The notes under the pieces were generated by a model that worked only from the letters and a program-made list of their open reading frames with translations, had not been told where the DNA came from and made no database searches. A program made the translations under genes and the position numbers. From Magnetococcales bacterium DCbin4 (lineage in GTDB: Bacteria; Pseudomonadota; Magnetococcia; Magnetococcales; UBA8363), in contig PEAN01000034.1 of NCBI GenBank assembly GCA_002753735.1, positions 1 to 39,734 on the forward strand: 39,734 bases of DNA. Direction: 5' to 3'. Below are positions 18,817 through 39,502 of the stretch, piece after piece; positions within the stretch are counted from its first letter, which is position 1, and every line of letters begins with the position of its first letter.

Positions 18817-19758
18817 TCAAAAGGGTTCCAATCCGGTGGGACCGAGCAGTCCGACTTCGGTATGAAGTTTGATCCCCGAGTGGGCCAGGACGGCATTTTG
18901 GACTTTGCGGATCAGAGCGGTCATGTCCGTAGCGCTGGCTTGTCCCATGTTGACAAGAAAATTGCAATGTTTGTCGGAGACCCGGGCCTGACCGATGGCA
19001 GCGCCACGCATGCGGGCGTCTTCGATGAGTTTCCAAGCGGCGGGGCCGTGCGGGGGATTTTTGAAGGTACTGCCTGCCGAAGGTAGGTGCAAAGGTTGGG
19101 ACAGGCGTCGATGATGGTTATGGCGCTGCATGGTCTGACGAATTCGTTCCCGATCCTTTGGGACCAGGCGGAACCGGGCCGAAACGAAGATCCAACCGGT
19201 GGGCAGAGCGGAATGGCGGTAGCTCATTTTGAGGTCGGTGGGGGTCAGGATGTGACGTTCACCAGAGGGATCGAGCACCAAGGCGTCGATCAGGATGTCT
19301 TTGAGTTCGCCGCCATGAGCACCGGCGTTCATGACCAGGGCACCGCCCACCGAACCGGGGATACCCGCCAGGAATTCGGCACCACCCAGCCCCAGTTGGC
19401 GCGCCTTATGGGCCAGGGCACGGGTTGAGGCACCCGCCTGGGCGAACAGGACCGCTTCTCCGTTGGGGTTGTCGCTGATCGGTTGTTGCAGATGGATCTG
19501 GTTGAGGCCATGGGTCATATCCAGGACGACGCCATGAAAACCGGAATCGGAAATCAGGATGTTGCTGCCCCCCCCCAGGATGAAACGGGGGGTCTCAGGC
19601 GACAGGCGGCTCCAGAACGAAGCCAGTTCATCGACATTCTGGAAGGTGGCCAGCCAGCGCGCCAGACCGCCGATACGCCATGTCGTCCGCCCGGCAAGGG
19701 GGACGTGTTCGCTCAGCATTCCAGCATTTGGGGGCGGAGGTGGAACGTCCGGGATCAT
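18817..19758 (-). CDS. murB: UDP-N-acetylenolpyruvoylglucosamine reductase MurB
   Basis: A 313-aa FAD enzyme reducing UDP-GlcNAc-enolpyruvate to UDP-MurNAc with NADPH. FAD-binding motifs ILGGGSNILISD and GIPGSVGGALVMNAGAHGGE are intact, with YRHS (conserved Arg), the catalytic Ser in SAGSTFKNP and the terminal Glu in HTEVGLLG. It begins 3 bp after murC ends, so translation is probably coupled. Confidence 0.96.
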   Translation of the reverse strand: MIPDVPPPPPNAGMLSEHVPLAGRTTWRIGGLARWLATFQNVDELASFWSRLSPETPRFILGGGSNILISDSGFHGVVLDMTHGLNQIHLQQPISDNPNGEAVLFAQAGASTRALAHKARQLGLGGAEFLAGIPGSVGGALVMNAGAHGGELKDILIDALVLDPSGERHILTPTDLKMSYRHSALPTGWIFVSARFRLVPKDRERIRQTMQRHNHHRRLSQPLHLPSAGSTFKNPPHGPAAWKLIEDARMRGAAIGQARVSDKHCNFLVNMGQASATDMTALIRKVQNAVLAHSGIKLHTEVGLLGPTGLEPF

Positions 19759-21177: not shown

Positions 21178-21433
21178 GATCCTGTTCCATTGCATGACAC
21201 CGAGAAAACCATATCCTGACTTTTTTTAATCCCGGCGTCCAGAGCAGTTGCATACTTATTTTGTGCTGCCCGTTTGATGATGATTGAATTTAAAGGTTTT
21301 TTTCTTTTGAGTCAGGGTTTGGTGCTTCGACCTTCGTGAAAGATGAAATCGACCTTGATCTCCTGTATCCTGACCAACAACGTCGCCGATGAGGGATCTG
21401 AATTGGGCCTTCGGTGATCCGACATAACCCTTG

Positions 21434-22810
21434 ATGGTCTCACCTGCAAACATGATGAATGCCACTCACGTTAATAAACAATATCCAATATTTGAAATAG
21501 CGATTGTTTTATTTATTATTATCCATGCAAATTTTGGTGAAATTGGACGTAATGCTGCCTGGGGCGTTTTGGGGCTTGCCATCGTATTTCTGTATTTGTT
21601 CCTATCTTCTGGTCGGTATCTCCGCTATAAAACGCATCACGCACCCTTTATTTTCTTTGCTATTTATTATGTATTTATTTTGCCATTTATTTCAATTGCC
21701 ATTGGATCACAATCTTCTGACTTTGATTTCATCTATTCTTTAAGGCATCTGACATGGTTTTTCTTTGGGGCTTTTTTCATCTTTTCCTTCAATAGGGCCT
21801 ATCAAATATTATATATTCTTGGAAGATTGATGCCTGTTCCCGTGATTTGGTCGCTGATCAATCCCCACGAACACACTGTTGGGATCGCTTTGATTGCTTT
21901 TTCTGTCAATGCCAGGTTCAGGAAATATTTCATTCCATTTTTACTTATTGAACTGTTCTTTCTATTGTTTCCAAACCTTATATTGTTGGATTTTGCACCC
22001 ATTGATTCCAGTTCGGCCAAGCTTGTAACAATAGCATTTATTTTTCTAATGATTTTGCCATTAATTCAGAAATATCGTTCGCTCTATTCAAAAAACAAGG
22101 TAAAGAATATCAGAAGATTCATGATATTTATTGTTGTGACCTTGGTCATTTTCTATTCGACACTTGGGTATATTGCCGACCGATTTAATTTAATGTACCC
22201 TGGCACATTTGTGTCGATCAGTCTTAATCTTTCTTCGTATTCAGAAGATACCAATATCCTGTGGCGAGCTGCTTATTGGGGGTCCATGCTGAGCCGCATT
22301 CCAGACAATCCTTTTGGGCTGGGTATTGGCCGACCTTTTCTTCCACTTGATGCCGGTAGTGGTGTTTATTTCTTTGACTTTGACCCTGTGAACAGGGGAA
22401 TGAGGTATGAACATTATTTTACTGGACCTCATAACAGTTTTGTCACACTGTTGGTATTTTGCGGACCATTCTTTTTGATTCCCTTCTTGTGGATGTTATG
22501 GTATACACCTTTGCTTGTATATCGCTCTTTGGCTGCTTATACTTATGATCGGAAAACGGGTACAATTTTGTTGGCTTTATTCCTGAATGCGATTCATTTG
22601 TTGATTACGAGCAGTGTGCATGTTGCCCTGGAAAGTCCAACCAACGCGGTCATGGTGTGGTTTGGTCTGGGGTTGTGGATGCGCGTTGCTGCCGATTGGG
22701 GCAACGCGGGGTTTATGTTTGTCGATGGCGGGGGGTGGCACAAGGAAACTCCGCTGATGTGGGGGGATGGCCTGTCGGCAAAACGATTGGACTCTGTCAA
22801 ACAGGGGTGA
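21434..22810 (+). CDS. O-antigen ligase/polymerase-like polytopic membrane protein
   Basis: A protein of about 458 aa with some ten or more hydrophobic segments (for example YPIFEIAIVLFIIIHANF, FIPFLLIELFFLLFPNLIL, IFIVVTLVIFYSTLGYI). The C-terminal half has the O-antigen ligase (Wzy_C/WaaL-like) pattern: ILWRAAYWGSML, NPFGLGIGRPF, and FTGPHNSFVTLLVFCG with the typical Pro-His-Asn-Ser. Such inner-membrane enzymes polymerise or transfer lipid-linked glycans in the periplasm; the acceptor is unknown. Base composition is clearly more AT-rich than neighbouring genes, suggesting transfer. The start is uncertain: TTG 21431, ATG 21434, 21452 or 21455, none with a strong ribosome-binding site. The following gene is in the same frame just after its stop. 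Confidence 0.75.
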   Translation: MVSPANMMNATHVNKQYPIFEIAIVLFIIIHANFGEIGRNAAWGVLGLAIVFLYLFLSSGRYLRYKTHHAPFIFFAIYYVFILPFISIAIGSQSSDFDFIYSLRHLTWFFFGAFFIFSFNRAYQILYILGRLMPVPVIWSLINPHEHTVGIALIAFSVNARFRKYFIPFLLIELFFLLFPNLILLDFAPIDSSSAKLVTIAFIFLMILPLIQKYRSLYSKNKVKNIRRFMIFIVVTLVIFYSTLGYIADRFNLMYPGTFVSISLNLSSYSEDTNILWRAAYWGSMLSRIPDNPFGLGIGRPFLPLDAGSGVYFFDFDPVNRGMRYEHYFTGPHNSFVTLLVFCGPFFLIPFLWMLWYTPLLVYRSLAAYTYDRKTGTILLALFLNAIHLLITSSVHVALESPTNAVMVWFGLGLWMRVAADWGNAGFMFVDGGGWHKETPLMWGDGLSAKRLDSVKQG

Positions 22811-29190: not shown

Positions 29191-29637
29191 CTACAGGGGA
29201 ACGACAAAAACCTTCAACTTTGACAGATCTTCCTCTTTGATCATCGAGGTTTGGGATACCGATACGGGTTGTCCCTCATGGTCGGTCCAGGAAACGGTCA
29301 CTCTGGCGGTTTTGTACGCCGGTGAACCCGATGCCATCACCGTCCAGCTTCGGGTGAACACCGTGTATTCTCCCGGAGGGGCGACGGGAAGATCAGAACC
29401 ACTGATGACATTGGAATAATCATTGCGTCCTTGAAAGCGCAACCGGTCGATCATCTCCCGGGACAGATTGAGGGCATGGGTGCGGGAGCGGGCCAGGGTG
29501 TTGCTGGTGTGCAAATCGCCTTGAAACTTGCCCAAGGCCAAAAGTCCCGCCCCAAGAACCACCATGGCGATCATGAGTTCGATCAATAACATTCCTCCCT
29601 GGGGTGAATGGCATGCCTGATTCAAGTTCATGTTCAT
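29191..29637 (-). CDS. PilV-like minor pilin (short paralogue)
   Basis: A 148-aa type IV prepilin-like protein. A short leader ends in Gly-Gly before MLLIELMIAMVVLGAGLLAL, matching the prepilin peptidase site with Glu at +5 and a hydrophobic alpha1 helix. The following QGDLHTSNTLARSRTHALNL and VTVSWTDHEGQPVSVSQ resemble PilV/PilI minor pilins, and nearly the whole chain is similar to the N-terminal part of the pilin gene at 35323-36327, so the two are duplicates. ATG 29637 follows GGGAG by seven bases; the frame opens at TTG 29655. It is the last pilin gene of the locus, 22 bp after the PilX-like gene. Confidence 0.85.
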   Translation of the reverse strand: MNMNLNQACHSPQGGMLLIELMIAMVVLGAGLLALGKFQGDLHTSNTLARSRTHALNLSREMIDRLRFQGRNDYSNVISGSDLPVAPPGEYTVFTRSWTVMASGSPAYKTARVTVSWTDHEGQPVSVSQTSMIKEEDLSKLKVFVVPL

Positions 29638-29659
29638 GGTGATGCTCCCATTCAAAACA

Positions 29660-30763
29660 TCAATAATCCCTCCATGACCCTGGCAAGAGGATCGACTTGT
29701 CGATGGGCATGGTGACCGTATCCTCCAGACCGCTCAAGTCAATGCCAAAAAAATTGGCATTGGCGTTGAGGTTGTGCAGATTTCCCTCCCACACTGCGGA
29801 ACCGTAGACGTTGACACTCCCGAATCCATTGGAATCACAGGTCCCGGGTCCGGATGTGTGAAACGTGGTGGTTTCAAAATAAATGATCCCATAGATGGTG
29901 GCGTTGCTGCCGTTGACCGTGTCACATCCCCCCTCGCCATCAAAAATGAAGATGCCAGGATTGTCGATGGAAGTTCCCGGGGTTCCTGGATCCGGCCCAT
30001 GCCAGACCTGATCCGTCGTGATCCAGGTGATCATCGGATTGGCCGCCGCACTGGCGAGCATGTTGGCCTTGGTAATATTGAACAGATACTTCCACGCACC
30101 ACCATCGACGAAATCGGTCGATTCGGGTGAAAAACCTTCATAGGTGGTTGTTCCACCATTGTTGACGTTCAAGTGGCCGGTATCGATGCAGCTGCCGGAG
30201 TTGCTCTGTGAAGTCACGATGGTGACCTCACCCGCAGATGTCGGGGTGACATCTGGGTTGCCGGTCACAGTGGACATGCAGCCATTGACGATGATGGGGG
30301 CGGGGGTATTCAGGAACAGATTTTGTTCAGTGGCCAGGGTGTATTGGCGCACGGTGGCGGTGACGGTGGTTTCCCCATCCTTGGTGGCGGTCGAGACCAC
30401 TTCCACATAACTGCGGTCGGTGGTCGGATTGCGGCGGAACAGGATGCTTGCGGTATAACCTCCGGTCACCGCCAATGAAATCGAAGGGGCGGTTTCATAG
30501 GGGGCATTGCCCGCTTCATCGGACCAGACCAGGGTTTGCCCCACCAACCATGCCGCGCCATACTGTAGACCTGCCTCCGCCGCGGCAAAGACCCCCTGGG
30601 CGCGGATTTCGTTGCCTGATATCTTTTGTTCGGTGATGCTGACACGGGCCGCTTGAAACGCCATGGCGGTCATGGTGAACAACATCACCATGGCCACCAC
30701 CATGGTCCAGGCACCCGCTTCGCCCGGGCGCTGACAACGCAGTACAGAGGTTGTCCCGTTCAT
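29660..30763 (-). CDS. PilX-like pilus assembly protein
   Basis: A 367-aa protein with a short N-terminus (GEAGAWTMVVAMVMLFTMTA) like the PilX_N region, then QAARVSITEQKISGNEIRAQ and FAAAEAGLQYGAAWL, features of the PilX/GspK-like minor pilins whose first helix is followed by an Ala-rich amphipathic part. The Glu+5 of classical prepilins is not evident, as usual for this class. The rest is a large, Thr/Gly/Asn-rich extracellular domain with cysteines. ATG 30763 overlaps the PilW stop (ATGA) and has GGGAG seven bases upstream. It probably belongs to the pilus tip/priming complex with PilV, PilW, FimT and PilE. Confidence 0.8.
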   Translation of the reverse strand: MNGTTSVLRCQRPGEAGAWTMVVAMVMLFTMTAMAFQAARVSITEQKISGNEIRAQGVFAAAEAGLQYGAAWLVGQTLVWSDEAGNAPYETAPSISLAVTGGYTASILFRRNPTTDRSYVEVVSTATKDGETTVTATVRQYTLATEQNLFLNTPAPIIVNGCMSTVTGNPDVTPTSAGEVTIVTSQSNSGSCIDTGHLNVNNGGTTTYEGFSPESTDFVDGGAWKYLFNITKANMLASAAANPMITWITTDQVWHGPDPGTPGTSIDNPGIFIFDGEGGCDTVNGSNATIYGIIYFETTTFHTSGPGTCDSNGFGSVNVYGSAVWEGNLHNLNANANFFGIDLSGLEDTVTMPIDKSILLPGSWRDY

Positions 30764-31524
30764 GGCTCGACTCCCAGTTTGTCGTTGCGCAACCAAACCT
30801 CGGTCGTGGAACTCATGGAAATGGTGCTGTCGCTGACCAGTTGGCCGGTCAGAGTGATTGTCACCTGGCGTTTGGTCAGGTAGGGGTCGCCGCTATTGAT
30901 GGTGTTGGTATCGGGGCAGGTGGTGCTGACGGAAGCGGCGGTCAGTTTGAGTTTGCATTCGGACAGACTGAAGGAAACCTGGGTATAATGGGTGTTGCGG
31001 GGATCGGTGAGGTCCACCCAATCGGTATCACCATAGGCGGTTCCGCAACTGAAAGTCCCCCCCGCACTGTCACGGCGCATTTGTACCACCCCGATGCCAC
31101 TGCCATCGGTGGCCAGGCGGAAACCATAGCGTTCATCATTGCCGGAACTGGTATCCAGGCTGCCATCCTGATCCAGATCATAGCTGAACAGAATACATGA
31201 ATTGGCCGTTCCACCGGTGATATTGGAGATCGTCAGGTCGTACCCCGACACCCAGAAAGGATTGTTCTTGATGGTGAAACCGGAGGTATCGGGCGTTGTG
31301 CCCCAAAACCCGGCCCGACGCAGTTCCCGTGACATCATTTCCTCCAGGGTTCGCAATTCCTGATTGAGACGGATGACATGATGGGAATAGGCCTGGGATG
31401 CCGCCTGGTTGGAGAATAGTTGCACCACGCCACTGAGAACAATGGCTCCGGCGGCCAGGGCGACCATGAGTTCGACCAGGCTGATGCCGTCCTGGTCTCC
31501 GAAGGAACGACGGGGGATCAACAT
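30760..31524 (-). CDS. PilW-like minor pilin
   Basis: A 254-aa prepilin-like protein. The N-terminus MLIPRRSFGDQDGISLVELM gives a prepilin peptidase site (Gly before ISLVELMVALAAGAIVLSG, Glu at +5). Downstream, RELRRAGFWGTTPDTSG and the later SCILFSYDLDQDG with GNDERYGFRL are typical of PilW family proteins. ATG 31524 has AGGAG upstream and overlaps the FimT stop by seven bases. The open frame continues upstream to 31821, but that part lies within the FimT gene in another frame. Cysteines in the globular domain could form disulfides. Confidence 0.85.
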   Translation of the reverse strand: MLIPRRSFGDQDGISLVELMVALAAGAIVLSGVVQLFSNQAASQAYSHHVIRLNQELRTLEEMMSRELRRAGFWGTTPDTSGFTIKNNPFWVSGYDLTISNITGGTANSCILFSYDLDQDGSLDTSSGNDERYGFRLATDGSGIGVVQMRRDSAGGTFSCGTAYGDTDWVDLTDPRNTHYTQVSFSLSECKLKLTAASVSTTCPDTNTINSGDPYLTKRQVTITLTGQLVSDSTISMSSTTEVWLRNDKLGVEP

Positions 31525-32093
31525 TGTGGCGCTCCTGAGACATAACTGCTGCCCGAGGGCGAACACATGAGGGGACGCCCCAGAATGTTCACTTGAACCT
31601 GGATGCTGCCACCGCTGCGCGTCGATGAAAAGGTGACGGTTCCGTTGCGCAAGGTTCCGTCCGATTCGCTGGCGGTGGCCCGTTGCGGATTGAAGGCAAC
31701 ATGGCTTTGGCCATTGAACGAGGCGGAGTCCATTTGTACCCGGGCAAAGGGGGTGGCAGTCATCGCCTTTTGGACCCCTCCCAGGGTGCAATAGGTAATG
31801 TTGGCGGTGCTGCAATTGCACAGATTGGCGGTGACGGTATCATCGAATCCGTAGCACCAGGTGGTTCCGGTGGAAAAATAGATGCGTACCTCCTTATTGT
31901 TCTGAATCGCTTCGGAACGGGCCAGTTGCAGATCGGCCACCAGGGTGTTACCCGCCCCCTTGAGATGTTTAAAATCCATGAAACGGGTCAACTGGGGGGT
32001 CGCGATGGCCACAGTGATGCCAACAATCGCCACGACGATCATCAGTTCCACCATGGTGAATCCCTGAACGGGAATGTGATTTCGGGTGTCCAT
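31518..32093 (-). CDS. FimT/GspH-like minor pilin
   Basis: A 191-aa prepilin. The leader MDTRNHIPVQG precedes FTMVELMIVVAIVGITVAIA, the GFTxxEL prepilin signature; QLARSEAIQNNKEVRIYF is the hallmark of the GspH/FimT family. The globular part is Cys-rich and ends GAPQC. ATG 32093 overlaps the PilE-like stop in TAATG, arguing for translational coupling; ATG 32108 is five codons earlier. Minor pilins of this class help initiate pilus assembly, and some FimT proteins bind DNA during natural transformation; the DNA role is not demonstrated here. Confidence 0.88.
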   Translation of the reverse strand: MDTRNHIPVQGFTMVELMIVVAIVGITVAIATPQLTRFMDFKHLKGAGNTLVADLQLARSEAIQNNKEVRIYFSTGTTWCYGFDDTVTANLCNCSTANITYCTLGGVQKAMTATPFARVQMDSASFNGQSHVAFNPQRATASESDGTLRNGTVTFSSTRSGGSIQVQVNILGRPLMCSPSGSSYVSGAPQC

Positions 32094-32509
32094 TATCGAT
32101 TCCAACATTTTTTTGCATCTTCACTGGTTTGTACGGGACCATTCTGATTGAGCTGAATCGAAGCACAGGAATCACTCGCCTGGACACCGGTCGGTGTTGC
32201 GGTGACGGTGAAGGCGGTCGAGCTGTTGCCGGAAATGGCCAGGGTATAATAGCCATCATTGGAGGTGGAACTGGCTCCGATGGTCGCCAGGCTGTTCAGG
32301 GTGGCATAGGAGGTGTGGACCGAGCGCCATTTTTCCTGAAGCAGTTGCATCCCCATCAGGGCGGCATGGGCGTCTGCACGGCGACTGCGATAGACCGACT
32401 CCTGATACGAGGGAATCGCGACCATGGCCAGCAGGGAAATGATGACGACGACGAGCATCAGTTCGACCAGGGAAAAACCGGGGCTGCGGGTTGAAGTTTT
32501 TGTGTTCAT
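32093..32509 (-). CDS. PilE-like type IV pilin
   Basis: A 138-aa prepilin with MNTKTSTRSPG followed by FSLVELMLVVVIISLLAMVA (Glu at +5), then IPSYQESVYRSRRADAHAAL, typical of PilE-type minor pilins and of small major pilins. Two C-terminal cysteines (SDSCASIQL, KKCWNR) could close a D-region disulfide loop. It is the first pilin after the ATPase gene, 38 bp downstream, and the only one here small enough to be a major subunit, though a PilE-like minor role is as likely. Confidence 0.87.
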   Translation of the reverse strand: MNTKTSTRSPGFSLVELMLVVVIISLLAMVAIPSYQESVYRSRRADAHAALMGMQLLQEKWRSVHTSYATLNSLATIGASSTSNDGYYTLAISGNSSTAFTVTATPTGVQASDSCASIQLNQNGPVQTSEDAKKCWNR

Positions 32510-32547
32510 TGGAGAAATGTTGCCTCTCGTCTAAGGTTGGGAACGGT

Positions 32548-34428
32548 TCAACCCCGTTCCATGAACGGTTCCAGATAGGGGGCGACTTCCCCCAACGCGG
32601 TGATCCCTTGAACCACTTTCACCCGACCGCTGGCAACCAAGGGTTCGAACCCCCGGTTCAGGGCCGCCCGGCGTAGAATGGAGGTCGCTTCATTGCGGGC
32701 GATCCGCTGTTTCATCTCTTCGTCCACGGTCAGCATTTCGTAGATGACCGTCCGTCCGACATGGCCGGTGTGGTTGCAGGCGGGGCAACCGGAACTCTCA
32801 TAAATGAGTTCAACACGATGGGTGACCGCCGAAGCGGTCGCCATGGCGTCCAGTAAACGTTCTTCCTGCGGGGTCGGCGGACGGCCACTCCGGCAGGCGG
32901 GACATAAACGGCGCACCAAACGTTGGGCAATCACCATGCTCACCGCCGATGAAACCAGAAACGGTTCCACCCCCATGTCCACCAGACGGGTTACCGCCCC
33001 GGGGGCATCGTTGGTGTGGAGGGTGGAAAACACCCGGTGGCCGGTCAAGGCGGCCTGGACGGAAATCTTGGCAGTTTCGGCATCACGGATTTCCCCTACC
33101 ATGATCACATCGGGGTCATGGCGCAAAAATTGGCGCAGGGCACGGGGAAAGGTAAAGCCGATACGGTTGTTGACCTGAACCTGGGTCACCCCATCCATCC
33201 GGACTTCGACCGGGTCCTCCACCGTGAGCAGATGACAGAACTGATGGCGTACGATGTAGTCGAGGGCGGCACGCAAGGTCGTCGATTTGCCGCTGCCGGT
33301 GGGGCCGGTGACCAGGATCAATCCGTGGGGGAGGGCGACGTTCCGCCGGAACCGTTCCAAATCATCGTGGGCAAAGCCTAGTTGCTCCATCGGGACCAAG
33401 CCCACCTGAAGGTCCAACAGACGCATAACGATGGTTTCACCCCGTACCGATGGTACGTCGGAAACCCGGATATCCAGCAATCGATCCGCCAGTCGTGCCT
33501 GGATATGCCCATCCTGGGGGAGCCGCTTTTCGGCAATATCCATCCCCGCTACCACCTTGATGCGCGAAACCAGCGGATTTTTTAAATGTAACGGCAGCCG
33601 AATCTCCTCAAACAACCGGCCATCGATACGGAAATGGACGTGGAGAAACCGTTGTTCGGGTACAATGTGGATGTCGCTGGCCCGTTTGGTCACGGCATTG
33701 ATGATGAGTTGATCCAGTAGTACCGTGACCGGTTGGTTGGGGTTGATCGCCTGACCCGACATGGCAACCAAACCGCGCAAATCAAGCTTTCCCACCGGTT
33801 GGCCCGTCGCGATTCGCGTTTCGCCGCCATACCAATGATCAATGGCCAACAGCAGCGGCGGACGGGGGGTCATACACAATCGCACCGGAAGTCCCGCCAA
33901 TTGTTCCGCCCGTTCCAGATCCACCTTTTTGGGATCGGCACAGGCCATGTAAAGGATTTCCCCTTCGATGCGTACCGGCAAGGCTTCCCAATGCGTCGCG
34001 TTGACACCGTCCATCCGTTGCACGGCAGCGGGTTCCATCTGTCCCGGATCCATCTCGGTATACGGCAGATTCAGGGTGATGGCCAATCCCATCGCCATCG
34101 TCCGTTGACCGATGATCCCCTTGTCGAACAACAGTTTCCACAGAGGAACACCCGTGCCGCTCTTCTTGCCCTCCTTGGCCTGTTGCACCGCCTCCGTGCT
34201 GACCAGCCCGGATGCAAGAAAAACATGAAGCAGACTGGTCGCATCTTCCAGATGGCGACACCCCAACAGTTGGGTCAGACGCTCCGGAGATAGGATCCCT
34301 TCCTGTTGTAAGGCGTGATTGAGTTGGATGAAACGGGAATGTCCTGCCAATATGCGATCACTCGGGGCCAGCGGTGGGTCCTGGGTGGGGTCGTCGGTGC
34401 GTTCCTTGGGGGCGGGCTCGGTGTCCAT
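32548..34428 (-). CDS. Type IV pilus/type II secretion assembly ATPase (PilB/GspE family)
   Basis: A 626-aa cytoplasmic hexameric ATPase. The N-terminal half resembles the GspE N/MshEN domains (ERLTQLLGCRHL, KLLFDKGIIGQRT, LPYTEMDPGQ). The ATPase core has Walker A GPTGSGKSTT (Lys381), Asp box TVEDPVE, Walker B DPDVIMVGEIRD, His box TGHRVFSTLHTNDA, and the PilB/GspE tetracysteine zinc motif (LCPACRSG then GCPACNHTG). ATG 34428 is chosen; upstream in-frame codons to 34533 are AT-rich and not family-like. It powers extension of a pilus or pseudopilus made from the downstream pilins. No pilC, pilT, pilD or secretin is in the window, so these must be elsewhere. Confidence 0.92.
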   Translation of the reverse strand: MDTEPAPKERTDDPTQDPPLAPSDRILAGHSRFIQLNHALQQEGILSPERLTQLLGCRHLEDATSLLHVFLASGLVSTEAVQQAKEGKKSGTGVPLWKLLFDKGIIGQRTMAMGLAITLNLPYTEMDPGQMEPAAVQRMDGVNATHWEALPVRIEGEILYMACADPKKVDLERAEQLAGLPVRLCMTPRPPLLLAIDHWYGGETRIATGQPVGKLDLRGLVAMSGQAINPNQPVTVLLDQLIINAVTKRASDIHIVPEQRFLHVHFRIDGRLFEEIRLPLHLKNPLVSRIKVVAGMDIAEKRLPQDGHIQARLADRLLDIRVSDVPSVRGETIVMRLLDLQVGLVPMEQLGFAHDDLERFRRNVALPHGLILVTGPTGSGKSTTLRAALDYIVRHQFCHLLTVEDPVEVRMDGVTQVQVNNRIGFTFPRALRQFLRHDPDVIMVGEIRDAETAKISVQAALTGHRVFSTLHTNDAPGAVTRLVDMGVEPFLVSSAVSMVIAQRLVRRLCPACRSGRPPTPQEERLLDAMATASAVTHRVELIYESSGCPACNHTGHVGRTVIYEMLTVDEEMKQRIARNEATSILRRAALNRGFEPLVASGRVKVVQGITALGEVAPYLEPFMERG

Positions 34429-34533
34429 GGCTTCTTGAATGTGCTGGCAAAGGGTGTGTTCATTGAACCCTATGATCGAGTAGCAACACCCGGGCCAGTG
34501 GCAAAGATGAGAAGAGACGCCTGTTTGAGGCAA

Positions 34534-34564
34534 ATAATAACATGCATCAGTAAAAAAAGTTGAA
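34534..34564 (-). promoter_or_regulatory. Candidate sigma70 promoter for the pilB-pilin cluster
   Basis: On the minus strand TTCAAC (34564-34559) and TATTAT (34539-34534) are 18 bp apart, with TG one base before the -10 element (extended -10). The surrounding 60 bp is very AT-rich. It lies about 105 bp upstream of the ATPase start, in the 231-bp gap after the cyclic-nucleotide-binding gene, so the cluster can be transcribed separately. Confidence 0.45.
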
Positions 34565-34659
34565 TATTGTAAAATAATTTTTCATCGAAGCAAGCACCAT
34601 CGGCCATCTTCCAGGGGCGGGTGCGGATTTCGGAACAGAATGGATGGGTATCGCCGTTG

Positions 34660-35175
34660 TCAGGAAGACGCTTCGGCAGAACCTTCGGCGTTGGAAAGCA
34701 CCTTTTCCCGCAAGGCCAGGGTCAGGGTTTCATTGATCCGTTTTTGTTGGACGATGTCCTCGGTCAGTTGTTCCAATCGACCGACCAGGATATCGGTGAG
34801 TTGCCGTAATATCTTGACCTGCATGGGTGCCTTCAGACGATTCATGGTCCCCTGATTGACCTTGAACACCGTCACCCCTTCTTCGGTGATCACGTTGGTG
34901 GAACGGGGACGACCGGTCAGGAAGGTCATTTCTCCGAGGACCGATCCAGAACCCAATGTGGCCAAAACCTTGCCCGGAAGCCCTTCCTTGGTGATGTTGA
35001 CCTGACCGTCCATGACAATGAAAAAAGAATCGTCCTCATCGGGTCCTTCCTTGATCAGAAATTCCCCCGGTTTCAAAGTCACGAACAAATCTTCAGTCTG
35101 CACAAAGGATGATTTTTCCTCAGTGGTGAAACTTTCAAAGAATGTAATACTTTCCATCAACCCAATCAGTGACAT
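34660..35175 (-). CDS. Cyclic-nucleotide-binding domain protein without DNA-binding domain
   Basis: A 171-aa protein with a single CNB domain (about 10-125): ITFFESFTTEEKSSF, LKPGEFLIKEG, DSFFIVMDGQVNI, then the phosphate-binding cassette GSVLGEMTFLTGRPRSTNVI with Gly-Glu and Arg in ligand-contact positions. The C-terminal third (LRQLTDILVGRLEQLTEDIV and onwards) is a charged helix likely to form a coiled coil; no helix-turn-helix is present. It is thus a ligand-sensing adaptor, not a Crp-type transcription factor. ATG 35175 follows GGGAG. It sits between a PilV-like gene and the pilus ATPase; whether it binds cAMP, cGMP or c-di-GMP is not readable from sequence. Confidence 0.88.
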   Translation of the reverse strand: MSLIGLMESITFFESFTTEEKSSFVQTEDLFVTLKPGEFLIKEGPDEDDSFFIVMDGQVNITKEGLPGKVLATLGSGSVLGEMTFLTGRPRSTNVITEEGVTVFKVNQGTMNRLKAPMQVKILRQLTDILVGRLEQLTEDIVQQKRINETLTLALREKVLSNAEGSAEASS

Positions 35176-35322
35176 GAGACCGATCTCCCGGCTGAATCCG
35201 CCGTGAATTGTGACACTTTGTTCCGACACGTTCCGGCAAGCAGCATACCTTCCACCCGCCGCGAAAGACAAGTTTCAAAGTCACACCTGATTGAACGAGT
35301 TATTTCAAACGATCAATTTTGT

Positions 35323-36327
35323 TCAGCATCCGCTGTAGGCAAGGGTAAAACTGCCGCATGAATTGACAGAGTTCTTTATTTCAAAGGTACCATAGGTACA
35401 GTTTTTGTCTCCGGTCACCGAGATCGAGGGAAGGGTAAAGGAATAGGAAGTATCGCCCCCATGCGCGGTCCCGGAACAGACATATTTGGAAGCACTGGTG
35501 AGGGTCACTGAGCCGCTCCAACTGGAGGAAACACCGGTAAAGGTACATGTGGCGCTGGTACTGGCACCTGAGACGGTTGGCGATGCGCAACTGCCCGATC
35601 CGCTGCCGGTCATGGAAAGGCTGAGTGAAGAGTTGTCGCTGATGGCGATTGTGATGGCGACCGTATAGGTGGGCGTGGATGTCGTGGTCGTTGTGGAAGA
35701 GGTCGTGGTGGTAGAGGTGGTGGTTGAAGAAGAACTGGTCGTCGTGGCTCCGCCTGCATCGATGGTGGTTGTCGTGGTACTGGTACTGTCGGGTGTGGAT
35801 GACGTGGTGCTCGTCGTTGAACCATCGGTGAGTATGGATGTCGTTGTCGATGAGGTGGTCGAAGTCGTCGACGTGGCGACGGATGTGGTTGATGAGGTCG
35901 CTGTCGAATCAATGAAGACACTCAGGCTAGAAATGCTTTCCTCCTTGAACGTTGTTGCTTGCGATACCGATTGTGATTGGCCATCCTGATCGGTCCAGGA
36001 GACGGTGACCGTGGCGGTTTTGTAGGATGGCGAACCCGAAGAGGTGATGACCCAGGCGCGGGAATAGGTGGTGTTGTCCCCCTGCTGGGCGGTTGGGGTA
36101 TCGGAACCGTCAGCGAGACTGGCATAATTGTTGCGACTCTCATAGCGTAGGAGATCGATTTTTTCCCGCACCAGATTGAGGGCGGATGAACGGACTCGGG
36201 CCAGGTTGTTGCTGGTATGAAGATCTCCCTGAAACTTGCCCAATGCCAGCAATCCCACGCCAAGGATGGTCATGGAGATCATGAGCTCAATCAAGAACCC
36301 CCCCCATTGATTTCTGGCCTTTGACAT
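35323..36327 (-). CDS. PilV-like pilin with Ser/Thr-rich linker and six-cysteine C-terminal domain
   Basis: A 334-aa prepilin. The leader MSKARNQWGG precedes FLIELMISMTILGVGLLALG (Glu at +5). Residues 1-140 closely match the short PilV-like protein at 29191-29637, including GLLALGKFQGDLHTSN and VTVSWTDQDGQSQSVSQ. Residues 141-219 are almost only Thr and Ser with a few Asp/Pro (mucin-like linker). Residues 220-334 form a Ser/Thr/Gly-rich, probably beta-sandwich domain with six cysteines (247, 261, 284, 310, 324 and the terminal residue 334). It may present an adhesive tip on the pilus. ATG 36327 follows GGAGG by nine bases; the frame opens further upstream. It is first in the pilus locus and divergent from the chemoreceptor. 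Confidence 0.83.
   Translation of the reverse strand: MSKARNQWGGFLIELMISMTILGVGLLALGKFQGDLHTSNNLARVRSSALNLVREKIDLLRYESRNNYASLADGSDTPTAQQGDNTTYSRAWVITSSGSPSYKTATVTVSWTDQDGQSQSVSQATTFKEESISSLSVFIDSTATSSTTSVATSTTSTTSSTTTSILTDGSTTSTTSSTPDSTSTTTTTIDAGGATTTSSSSTTTSTTTTSSTTTTTSTPTYTVAITIAISDNSSLSLSMTGSGSGSCASPTVSGASTSATCTFTGVSSSWSGSVTLTSASKYVCSGTAHGGDTSYSFTLPSISVTGDKNCTYGTFEIKNSVNSCGSFTLAYSGC
35671..35907. repeat. Low-complexity Ser/Thr-codon repeat region within the long PilV-like gene
   Basis: This stretch consists of degenerate short repeats of Thr and Ser codons (minus strand), seen on the plus strand as runs of GTGGT/GTCGT. It encodes the 79-residue linker between the pilin helix/head and the C-terminal domain. 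Such DNA is prone to slippage, so linker length may vary between strains. Confidence 0.8.
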
Positions 36328-36610
36328 GACAATGACCCTCCTTACCTTGCGCTTGGGTTTCAGGCTGTGATTTACTGATTGATGGTCACTCATTCACGGG
36401 CTGGATTTCAATACTTTATCGTCAGGATGGGTTCCACGCCTGATTGAAAACACTGCATGGGGCGTTGAAATACCGATTTTTCTTTTCATTGCAGGATCAG
36501 CCAGGATAAGGTATTGGCCATGTTGTCTTTGTTGTATGCAACTTTTCAGGTTGGTGACTTGATCTGAACAGTTAACGGCTTTAAGGATCGATCGGGAACA
36601 CTGCCAAACC
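36328..36610. other. Divergent intergenic region between the PilV-like gene and chemoreceptor 2
   Basis: A 283-bp region upstream of two divergent genes, so it should hold promoters for both. No confident -35/-10, sigma28 or sigma54 element was found by eye. The Shine-Dalgarno GGAGG of the PilV-like gene lies at its left end. No small gene is supported here. Confidence 0.5.
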
Positions 36611-39502
36611 ATGCCCATCAAATATCGAATTGTCATCACATTCTCGCTGACGTTGCTGGTGATTCTTCTGGCCAACGGCTGGATTCTGTTTGATCTGACA
36701 CGGGAAGCGGTGACCCGCGCCGGCATTGATCACATGCGCAACAGTCTGGTTGAAACCTCACATCGCGCCATGACGCTGCATCAGAAGACCAAGGATATGT
36801 TGCTGATGGCGCTGGAGTTTCCCTCGTTCATTGAATTTTATTCACTCCCCGAAACCCGTCGGGGCAATATTTATGACGCCGATCACGTCATCCAATTCTC
36901 TCCCGAACAACGGCGGCTGAAAAACATGTTGGATGATTGGATCCAACGTTTGCAACATCGCTTTCCCATTGTCGAAACCTGCATTATCGACCAGACCGGG
37001 CAGGAACATGCCCGGTTGACCATGGGGGTGGTTGCGCCCGATTCCGATTTTTCCAGTGAGGAAAACGAAGCCCCCTTTTTCAAGCCGACCATGGAACTGG
37101 CAAAAGGTGAAGTTCATGTGGCCTATCCCTACATGTCCCCGGATGCCAAGAAATGGGTCTTCTCCTACACGTCCCCCGTGGTGTTGCAGGATGGAACCAA
37201 GCCGGCCTTTTTTCACCTGGAAATTCCCATTTCCCATTTCCAGTCCAGCATTGATGAATTCCCCCATGATGTCCATGGCAAGACGGCGCAACGCTCCAAG
37301 CGCAATTTCATCTTTGACCCCAGTGGGATCTTGATTGCCGACAGTGGTTCCCAGGCGATCAACATTGATCTGCCTGAGGGAAAGGATCCCGAGGGGGAAC
37401 ATGACATCAAAACATATTTGCCCCCGTATAATTCCATCTCCCAATCCCCGGAGTTCACCACCATCATCAATGCCATGGGGAAGGGGGAGGAGGGGGTGGG
37501 GCAGTATCACGATGGAGCGGTTCTGTACAACGTAGCCTATAAACCCTTGGGAATTTTTGGCTGGAGCATTGCGGAAATCCGTTCGGAAGAACAATTGATG
37601 GAGGCTTCCGCAACGGTCATGCAGCAGATGGCCTATACCGCAGTCATGACCGTGTTGATTTCACTGGGCATCGCCATCGTGATCATCACCCTGATTGCCA
37701 AACGGATTTCCCGTCCCATCGAAACATTGACCCGGGATGTGCGTATCATTGCCACCAAAAATTTGACCGAGCGGGTGAATCTGGACCTTTTGCCCAGTGG
37801 TGAATTGCGTTCGCTGGGTGAAGCGGTGGATGCCATGGAGACCAGTCTTTTGGAAATGGGGCGGGATATTTCGCTTTATGCCCAAACGGTGGCGGCTTGT
37901 GCCAACGGACTCAATTCGATCCGCGCAGCCGTTCAGGGTGGGGCGGAACAGACGACCGAGCGGGCCTTGGCCATGGAAGAGGCCAATCATATGTTGGCAA
38001 AGAACATCTCTCATATTCATGAGCAGATGGAAGAGGTCAACCAGCGTATGGAATCGATCACCGATGCTTCGAGCATGCTGATGGTCAATATTCAATCGAT
38101 CATCGAGGCTTCCGATGCCGGCAGCCAGAATGCGGCTTCGGTGGCTGCCGCTTCGGAAGAGATGACGGCCAATCTGTCAGAATCGAGTCACCGTCTGGAC
38201 GAGGTCAATGATTCCCTGGTCGTGGTGACGAACCGGTCCGTCGATGTCGTTTCTTCACTCGGCGCCATTCAAAAGCTGTGTCAATTGGCCGATCAAAAGT
38301 CGCGCCATGCCGAGAACGAAGCGCATCGTGCCCAGGAGGTCATGGAAAGTTTGAGTGTTTCGGCCAATGAAATCGACAAGGTGGTGGAGGTGATCCGCAA
38401 TATTGCCGAGCAAACCAACATGTTGGCCTTGAATGCCATTATCGAGGCGGCGGGTGCGGGCGATGCCGGCAAGGGGTTTGCCGTGGTGGCCAACGAGGTC
38501 AAGGAACTGGCCAGGCAGACTGCCGATGCCACCGCCATGATCACCGAGCGGGTCGAAGAGATCCAGGACAAGACGGTCAAGGTCAAACAAGCCTCTGATC
38601 AGGTTACGGCCTACGTCAATGAATTGCGTGAGGCCAATACTTCGATCACTCATGCCATTGATGATCAAAATATGGCGCTTACGGCCATCTCGCAGGGGAT
38701 TTCTTCCGTTTCTTCGGCGACGGGTGAAATCGTGAACCATTCCAAGGAACTTTCCATTGCCGCTTCTGAAGTTGCCAATGCTGCCGATGTGGCCCGCCTG
38801 GCCGCATTGAACATCATCGATGCCACCAGTCAGGCCAATGCGGTGGCACAGTTGGTCGAAGAAAAGGCGCGGGAAACCCGGGCCTTCGCCAATACGGTAC
38901 TGGCATCGGCCATGGAAAGTGGCAAGACCTCCATTGCGGTTCTGGAACAGGCGCGAAATGTGTTTCATCTGGCACGCGGCGCCATGGGGGCGACCAGTGC
39001 TTTTGGCCATGTGACCGATATCACTCTGGCAAGTGCCGATTCGTTGCAAAAATTGCGGGCTTCCTTGACTCTGCCGACCCAGGGCATGTTCGATATCAAG
39101 AGTTTGAAGGAACTTTTCCTCCACTGGATTCAATTGATTGAACAGGCCATGTTATCGCAGGGAGGAGGTCAATTGGGGATTCAGGCGACGCTTCCCTTGG
39201 AACAGCGCATGGCGGACTTCCGGTCCTGGTTGGAGGGAGAGGGTGCGCAATTATTTGGTTCTTCGCAGCACTTCAAGGAACTCCAGGAAAGCTTTCGCGA
39301 CATGTGTGAACTTGAACGGCAGATCTCTTCGATGGTTGCGGAGGGAAGTCAGCTCAAGCTGGAGGCGGAAAAACAGGATGATGTGCAGCTTTTGTCTCAG
39401 GGAGAACGTGTTCTCAAATCGGCGCAGCAGGCACTTGAATTTTTCCATGTGGAGCGGCAAAAGCTGTTTTTGATCCTGGACCGGCTTTATCGGGGGATGT
39501 AG
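36611..39502 (+). CDS. Methyl-accepting chemotaxis protein with degenerate C-terminal CZB-like domain
   Basis: A 963-aa receptor. A first membrane helix ([19 protein letters not shown]) precedes a large periplasmic Cache-type sensor (about 30-335) with [16 protein letters not shown] and [14 protein letters not shown], a second helix near 341-363 ([16 protein letters not shown]), HAMP ([17 protein letters not shown]), and a signalling domain whose tip is [20 protein letters not shown] (Glu600) then [15 protein letters not shown]. The C-terminus (about 830-930) looks like a chemoreceptor zinc-binding (CZB) domain, with [19 protein letters not shown] and [15 protein letters not shown]. Only one of the four usual zinc ligands (His838) is kept; the others are Ala868, Phe and Cys. 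No chemotaxis kinase genes are nearby. The start has a weak ribosome-binding site. Confidence 0.92.

Follow-up and report, generated by a model that had tools for sequence, protein, structure and literature searches.

A PilV-like minor pilin with a Ser/Thr stalk and an orphan six-cysteine distal domain in a Magnetococcales pilin gene cluster

Organization of the pilin gene cluster

The window analyzed here, a stretch of 39,734 nucleotides from Magnetococcales bacterium DCbin4 (the source genome), contains a pilin gene cluster at 29191–36327 that lies entirely on the minus strand. The gene under study encodes a stalked PilV-like (I-type) minor pilin of 334 amino acids and runs from an ATG at 36327, with an AGGAGG upstream, to a stop at 35323. 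The original prediction had placed an ORF at 35323–36327 without naming its strand; the ORF stands and its strand is minus, the plus-strand reading of the same interval containing 14 stops. A scan of 35200–36700 for sigma-70 promoters returned none (1.3 expected). The stalked pilin gene is followed by those for a cyclic-nucleotide-binding-domain (cNMP) protein (34660–35271; PF00027, 9.9e-17), a GspE/PilB-type assembly ATPase (32548–34533), a PilE/ComP-like pilin (32093–32509; PF16732, 2.5e-26), a GspH/FimT-type minor pilin (31518–32108; PF12019, 1.7e-11), a pilin in the PilW/GspJ position (30760–31515; PF07963, 7.8e-05) that is named PilW by gene order, a PilX-type minor pilin (29660–30796; PF14341, 2.5e-06) and an unstalked paralogue of the stalked pilin, PilV2 (29191–29655). 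The source genome has one match to prepilin peptidase and one to PilY1, the latter in the canonical operon described below and outside 29191–36327.

Orthologues of the ATPase are found in all seven other same-genus genomes (72–76% identity). G006 has a putative acetyl-CoA synthetase ORF, the ATPase gene and the cNMP gene in the same order as the window (L049); tblastn over a 12.5 kb stretch of this genome found none of the window pilins, and the gap between the acetyl-CoA synthetase-like ORF and the ATPase holds only a 142-residue ORF. A different pilin set adjoins the orthologous ATPase of G007, and an insensitive text pattern found no pilins over 6.5 to 12.5 kb near the ATPase in the remaining five. 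These comparisons suggest that the pilin set was either gained in the source lineage or lost in its relatives. G017 has a similar pilin set whose PilV is unstalked, and G040 and G044 carry a related PilV with PilX neighbors.

The pilin head and its unstalked paralogue

The protein begins with the leader peptide MSKARNQWG (36301–36327), delimited from the sequence and from the alignment with PilV2. Cleavage is predicted between G9 and G10 (MSKARNQWG/GFLIELMIS...), which gives Gly at −1, Glu at +5 and a hydrophobic helix, the arrangement of a class III leader, and places Gly at +1. The Gly at +1 is atypical in that the other 16 heads in our tree have Phe or Met there, 13 of these 16 having been delimited by a text pattern that required Phe, Met or Tyr at +1.

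Residues 10–139 (35911–36300) make up the pilin head, which is modeled as a long N-terminal helix and a beta-sheet resembling GspI and EpsI. In a two-sequence model the helix spans residues 5–63 and four strands extend up to residue 128, with a block-mean pLDDT of 58–85 over residues 11–130 and below 50 for most of the remainder. Pseudopilin chains lead the VIA-align list for this model at Z 10.3–9.2, with EpsI (2ret_A; Z 10.3, 82 residues aligned, 2.3 Å), XcpV/W (5bw0_B; Z 10.2) and GspI (3ci0_I; Z 10.1) as the top rows. Pilins or pseudopilins fill ranks 1–8, with Z falling to 6.8, and a different fold first appears at Z 6.4, which assigns a pilin fold to the head. A Thermus competence pilin is also among the structural likenesses. 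Foldseek with the predicted structure returned nothing at E 0.001 or better and ranked methyltransferases at the top.

The stalked pilin misses the cut-offs of PF07963 (N_methyl; 15.8 of 21.2 bits), TIGR02532 (13.2 of 16.3 bits) and TIGR02523, the PilV equivalog (17.7 of 52.2 bits), for which the unstalked paralogue scores 14.6, 13.5 and 39.5 bits, respectively. Therefore we name the stalked pilin PilV-like or I-type and not PilV. The likeness to GspI and the H-, J- and K-type neighbors, J being assigned by gene order, are those of an I-type minor pilin. A PilV-type head had been predicted for this protein, and both the 61% identity to PilV2 over residues 7–139 and the EpsI/GspI-like model (Z about 10) agree with that prediction.

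PilV2 stops at the start of the stalk, at the equivalent of residue 139, and the stalked pilin has 195 further residues. Compared with PilV2, the protein thus has the organization of a modular pilin, in which the pilin module continues into an extra C-terminal one. The stalked head and PilV2 are sisters (support 100/99) in a tree of 17 pilin rows, with branch lengths of 0.18 and 0.41, respectively; given its shorter branch, the stalked head is not decaying. The next closest heads, from G040 and G044, both share 36% identity with the stalked head in the tree alignment (43% over residues 9–119 and 41% over residues 9–118, respectively, at search level). As the nearest outside heads are only 36% identical, the duplication is confined to the source lineage within our sample. 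A search of 61 genomes with the whole protein found the stalked PilV in the source genome only, and there is thus no conservation to show its retention by selection, which counts against the explanation favored below. Taken together, the alignments and the tree indicate that a PilV/GspI-type pilin was duplicated in the source lineage and that one copy gained a stalk and a Cys-rich domain.

The Ser/Thr stalk and the distal domain

The stalk comprises residues 140–218 (35674–35910), is about 80% Ser or Thr and is modeled as disordered at low confidence (pLDDT about 30–36). Its maximum-scoring Ser/Thr segment covers residues 141–218, in which 63 of 78 residues are Ser or Thr; the densest 78-residue windows in seven other proteins of the window hold 12 to 27. 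A linker of roughly 79 Ser/Thr-rich residues had been described from the first reading, and the segment fits that description as well as that of a mucin-like stretch, which is Ser/Thr-dominated and disordered. If extended, the stalk would reach roughly 20–28 nm (79 residues × 0.25–0.36 nm). Judged from its sequence, it is a candidate target of O-glycosylation. Four Wzy_C proteins exceed the cut-off in the source genome and are candidate O-glycan ligases, none of them tied to pilins. One of the four (L029, on contig C41) is a putative exosortase A-system O-glycosylation ligase (TIGR03097, 429.5 bits), and with this match an exosortase-type sorting system may be present in the source genome. A Wzy_C-family membrane protein encoded at 21431–22810 of the window, to which NCBIfam gave no assignment, is a possible glycan polymerase or ligase.

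The stalk had also been proposed to be encoded by slippage-prone DNA allowing phase variation, which our analysis does not support. TRF found three copies of a 15-bp unit at 83% and a weak 12-bp array at 70% in the gene. Exact repeats of at least 12 nt are absent from the whole gene, and the stalk uses mixed synonymous codons. Since the arrays have periods of 12 and 15 bp, slippage there could only alter the length in frame, and we reject phase variation through the stalk DNA. The repeat-rich or homopolymeric coding DNA of contingency genes is not seen in this gene. Its sole frame-shifting homopolymer longer than six is a G8 at 36298–36305, which codes for W-G-G across the predicted cleavage site. 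The window has G or C runs of eight or more about as often as chance predicts (4 observed, 4.5 expected), and phase variation through the G8 tract is possible but unsupported. The longest G/C run of the window is a C9 at 19568–19576 within a probable essential gene, an ORF that we take to be murB, whose Gly run it encodes.

Codon scores count against a frameshift or an assembly artefact as the origin of the distal domain. This tip scores +0.098 bits/codon in the sense frame and −0.22 to −1.00 in the other five frames, and the head scores +0.27 in the sense frame and negative in all others. Within the stalk, one antisense frame (0.371) exceeds the sense frame (0.049), and an open Val-rich frame lies on the opposite strand at 35669–35989. 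Since the sense frame has the best score in both head and tip, we read the antisense score as a by-product of Thr/Ser codons.

The distal domain (residues 219–334; 35326–35673) contains six Cys, at positions 247, 261, 284, 310, 324 and 334, the last of which is the C-terminus, and there is no Cys in the head or the stalk. These are the six cysteines, with one at the very end, that had been noted at the outset, here within 116 residues. This number exceeds background, with P about 0.001 when the Cys frequency is taken from 15 window proteins and about 0.012 when it is taken from the other five pilins of the cassette. The domain is probably disulfide-bonded.

The domain had not been recognized at first reading, and it is an orphan in every collection that we searched. 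Two scans of the genome contig collection gave 162 and 592 pattern matches, none of which was confirmed. The 48 genomes of the order gave seven weak rows (E 0.0012–0.07), five of them with internal stops, which we read as chance. At E 0.001 or better, the phylum sample of 398 genomes yielded the source genome only (0 of 397 others), no relatives were found in the plasmid and phage collections, and PDB sequences and NCBIfam gave no match. Faint Ig-like signals came from phrog_33551 (Ig domain, E 0.0096) and Big_3_5 (E 0.54); two Ig-domain rows of VIA-align (Z 5.1 and 4.9) span residues 135–334, modeled below pLDDT 50, and were given no weight. We take a resemblance of the domain to beta-sandwich repeats with a W-S-G-T-V motif as a lead. 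Structure prediction, proposed earlier as a check on the domain, gave no confident fold for the tip alone (mean pLDDT 47). As no relative was found, no conserved site can be named, which again counts against the favored explanation.

Recurrence in PilX and the proposed role of the stalked pilin

The source genome also has a canonical operon, on contig C135, with fimU/GspH, pilV, pilW, pilX, pilY1 and pilE genes. Its PilX (L087:10512–11444, minus strand; PF14341, 1.2e-15; PF13681, 1.2e-13) adjoins PilY1 and ends in a Ser/Thr stalk of 52 residues followed by a tip with six Cys. Matches to this PilX were found in 13 of the 48 genomes of the order. Stalk and tip are present in six of the 13, from two families, and are missing in the other seven, including the otherwise close G031. 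The stalks of the six (G000, which is the source genome, G006, G038, G045, G027 and G033) measure 52, 67, 60, 78, 82 and 99 residues, respectively, and the tips measure 51–52 residues with six Cys each and share 21 invariant columns of 56 in alignment. With its conserved tip and variable stalk length, the PilX family suggests that the spacer is separable from the business end. This tip occurs in 6 of the 398 phylum-sample genomes, all within the source order. The PilX tip family has no match in Pfam or PDB, and homology between the PilV and PilX tips was not detected (hhalign probability 0.2%). The PilX stalk DNA of G027 and G033 (L097, L098) contains 33-bp tandem repeats (97–98% match), which makes an in-frame change of length likely in these two, in contrast to the window gene.

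G051, related to the source genome at the level of the phylum only, encodes a PilV (L092:8182–9207) whose stalk is Thr-rich (TTPTTG) and whose C-terminal domain has Cys as its last residue; the TTPTTG repeat includes unknown residues from an assembly run of N. A DNA pattern for Ser/Thr runs was applied across the order with the pattern's opposite strand as control and was discarded as too loose, giving mostly unrelated repeats in 28 of the 48 genomes.

On balance we favor, with some reserve, the explanation that the protein is a minor pilin of the modular kind, with a stalk that presents the six-Cys domain at the pilus tip, ligand binding being the likeliest role. The prepilin peptidase would process the head, which would then enter an H-I-J-K-type minor-pilin complex with the GspH-like, PilW-like and PilX pilins of the cluster. 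This complex would start and cap the filament, and the extended stalk would carry the six-Cys domain out in front of the filament tip, for binding to a surface or a ligand. A long Ser/Thr stalk would let a small Cys-rich head reach past the filament body. In the accessible part of PMC9934059, the HIJK minor pilins are the tip complex that starts assembly, and I/PilA helps to present tip effectors, which are modular pilins in Streptococcus sanguinis and PilY1 in diderms (the accessible part of PMC8833165 concerns a PilY1 partner). As the cluster has no PilY1, the stalked pilin may fill the tip-effector place held elsewhere by PilY1. By analogy with modular pilins whose lectin or vWA modules bind ligands, as the accessible parts of PMC8179133 and PMC9934059 describe, a tip-adhesin role is plausible.

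A bolder proposal, which we regard as rather doubtful, has two parts. The stalked and the plain PilV might be interchangeable tip subunits, the choice between them at filament start setting a binding head or none and giving two kinds of tip per machine. In addition, Ser/Thr-stalked Cys-rich tips, having arisen separately on PilV and PilX, might be a general tip design in the order that partly replaces PilY1. Whatever its role, the plain and stalked PilV pair in one cluster is a natural comparison for the effect of a grafted tip module.

The distal domain might instead serve as an adaptor, docking at the tip either an adhesin secreted on its own or a protein like PilY1, in the way that CofB docks CofJ in the precedent given in the accessible part of PMC8179133. 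While the stalked PilX of the source genome directly adjoins PilY1 and the tip has no recognizable binding domain, no candidate secreted partner is apparent within 29191–36327 and a docking domain would be oddly placed on a flexible 79-residue stalk. We consider such docking unlikely.

There is a small chance that what the cluster builds is a pseudopilus of the type II secretion kind or a competence pilus for DNA uptake, in which the domain contacts exported substrates or DNA and not surfaces. For the ATPase, the GspE model (499.9 bits) scores slightly above the PilB model (485.7 bits), both below their cut-offs, and the head resembles both GspI and the Thermus competence pilin. The PilE of the cluster matches the ComP family, but PF16732 is also matched by the PilE of the canonical operon and so does not single out competence. 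Against a pseudopilus, reading of the window ORF lists found no secretin or GspC/L/M-type gene, and the N-terminal family of PilX points to pili. We consider it improbable that the extension arose recently and lacks a function, being a low-complexity stretch with a fused orphan tail that a redundant PilV duplicate tolerates. In favor of this reading, the stalked PilV is restricted to one of the 61 genomes searched, its tip is likewise unique in the phylum sample and an unstalked copy persists. Against it, the tip retains in-frame coding-like codon use and its six Cys, the branch of the stalked head is the shorter of the two, and PilX conserves this design in two families.

The modular tip pilin that we favor has known counterparts. 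The accessible part of PMC8179133 counts more than 1,200 modular pilins, of 264 architectures, and describes the extra module as joined via a short linker. Like PilB and PilC of S. sanguinis, as the accessible parts of PMC8179133 and PMC9934059 present them, the window pilin is a minor pilin with an N-terminal pilin module, a C-terminal module and a probable display at the tip. In PilB and PilC the linker is short and the module is a known vWA or lectin domain, whereas the window pilin has a 79-residue Ser/Thr stalk and an orphan six-Cys domain. Here the I-type subunit itself bears the extra module, and the I-type PilA of S. sanguinis, on the same accessible text, bears none. CofB and ComZ are likewise large tip minor pilins with an added domain proposed to act at the tip; the accessible part of PMC8179133 describes them without a Ser/Thr stalk, and neither was matched in our searches. 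We found no report of a Ser/Thr-stalked PilV or PilX in the literature searched, a coverage that mostly excludes subscription literature.

The window pilin shares with GspI/PilV I-type pilins the head fold and a cluster with H-, J- and K-type partners, and it extends further than PilV2 and most relatives found, which end with the pilin domain. The PilX of the canonical operon in the same genome is also close in design: it too is a minor pilin, and its Ser/Thr stalk leads to a six-Cys domain in which one Cys is C-terminal or adjacent to the C-terminus. Unlike the window PilV, this PilX occupies the K position and has a tip of 51–52 amino acids with a different Cys spacing. The stalked design is an unusual version of known pilins with grafted extra domains.
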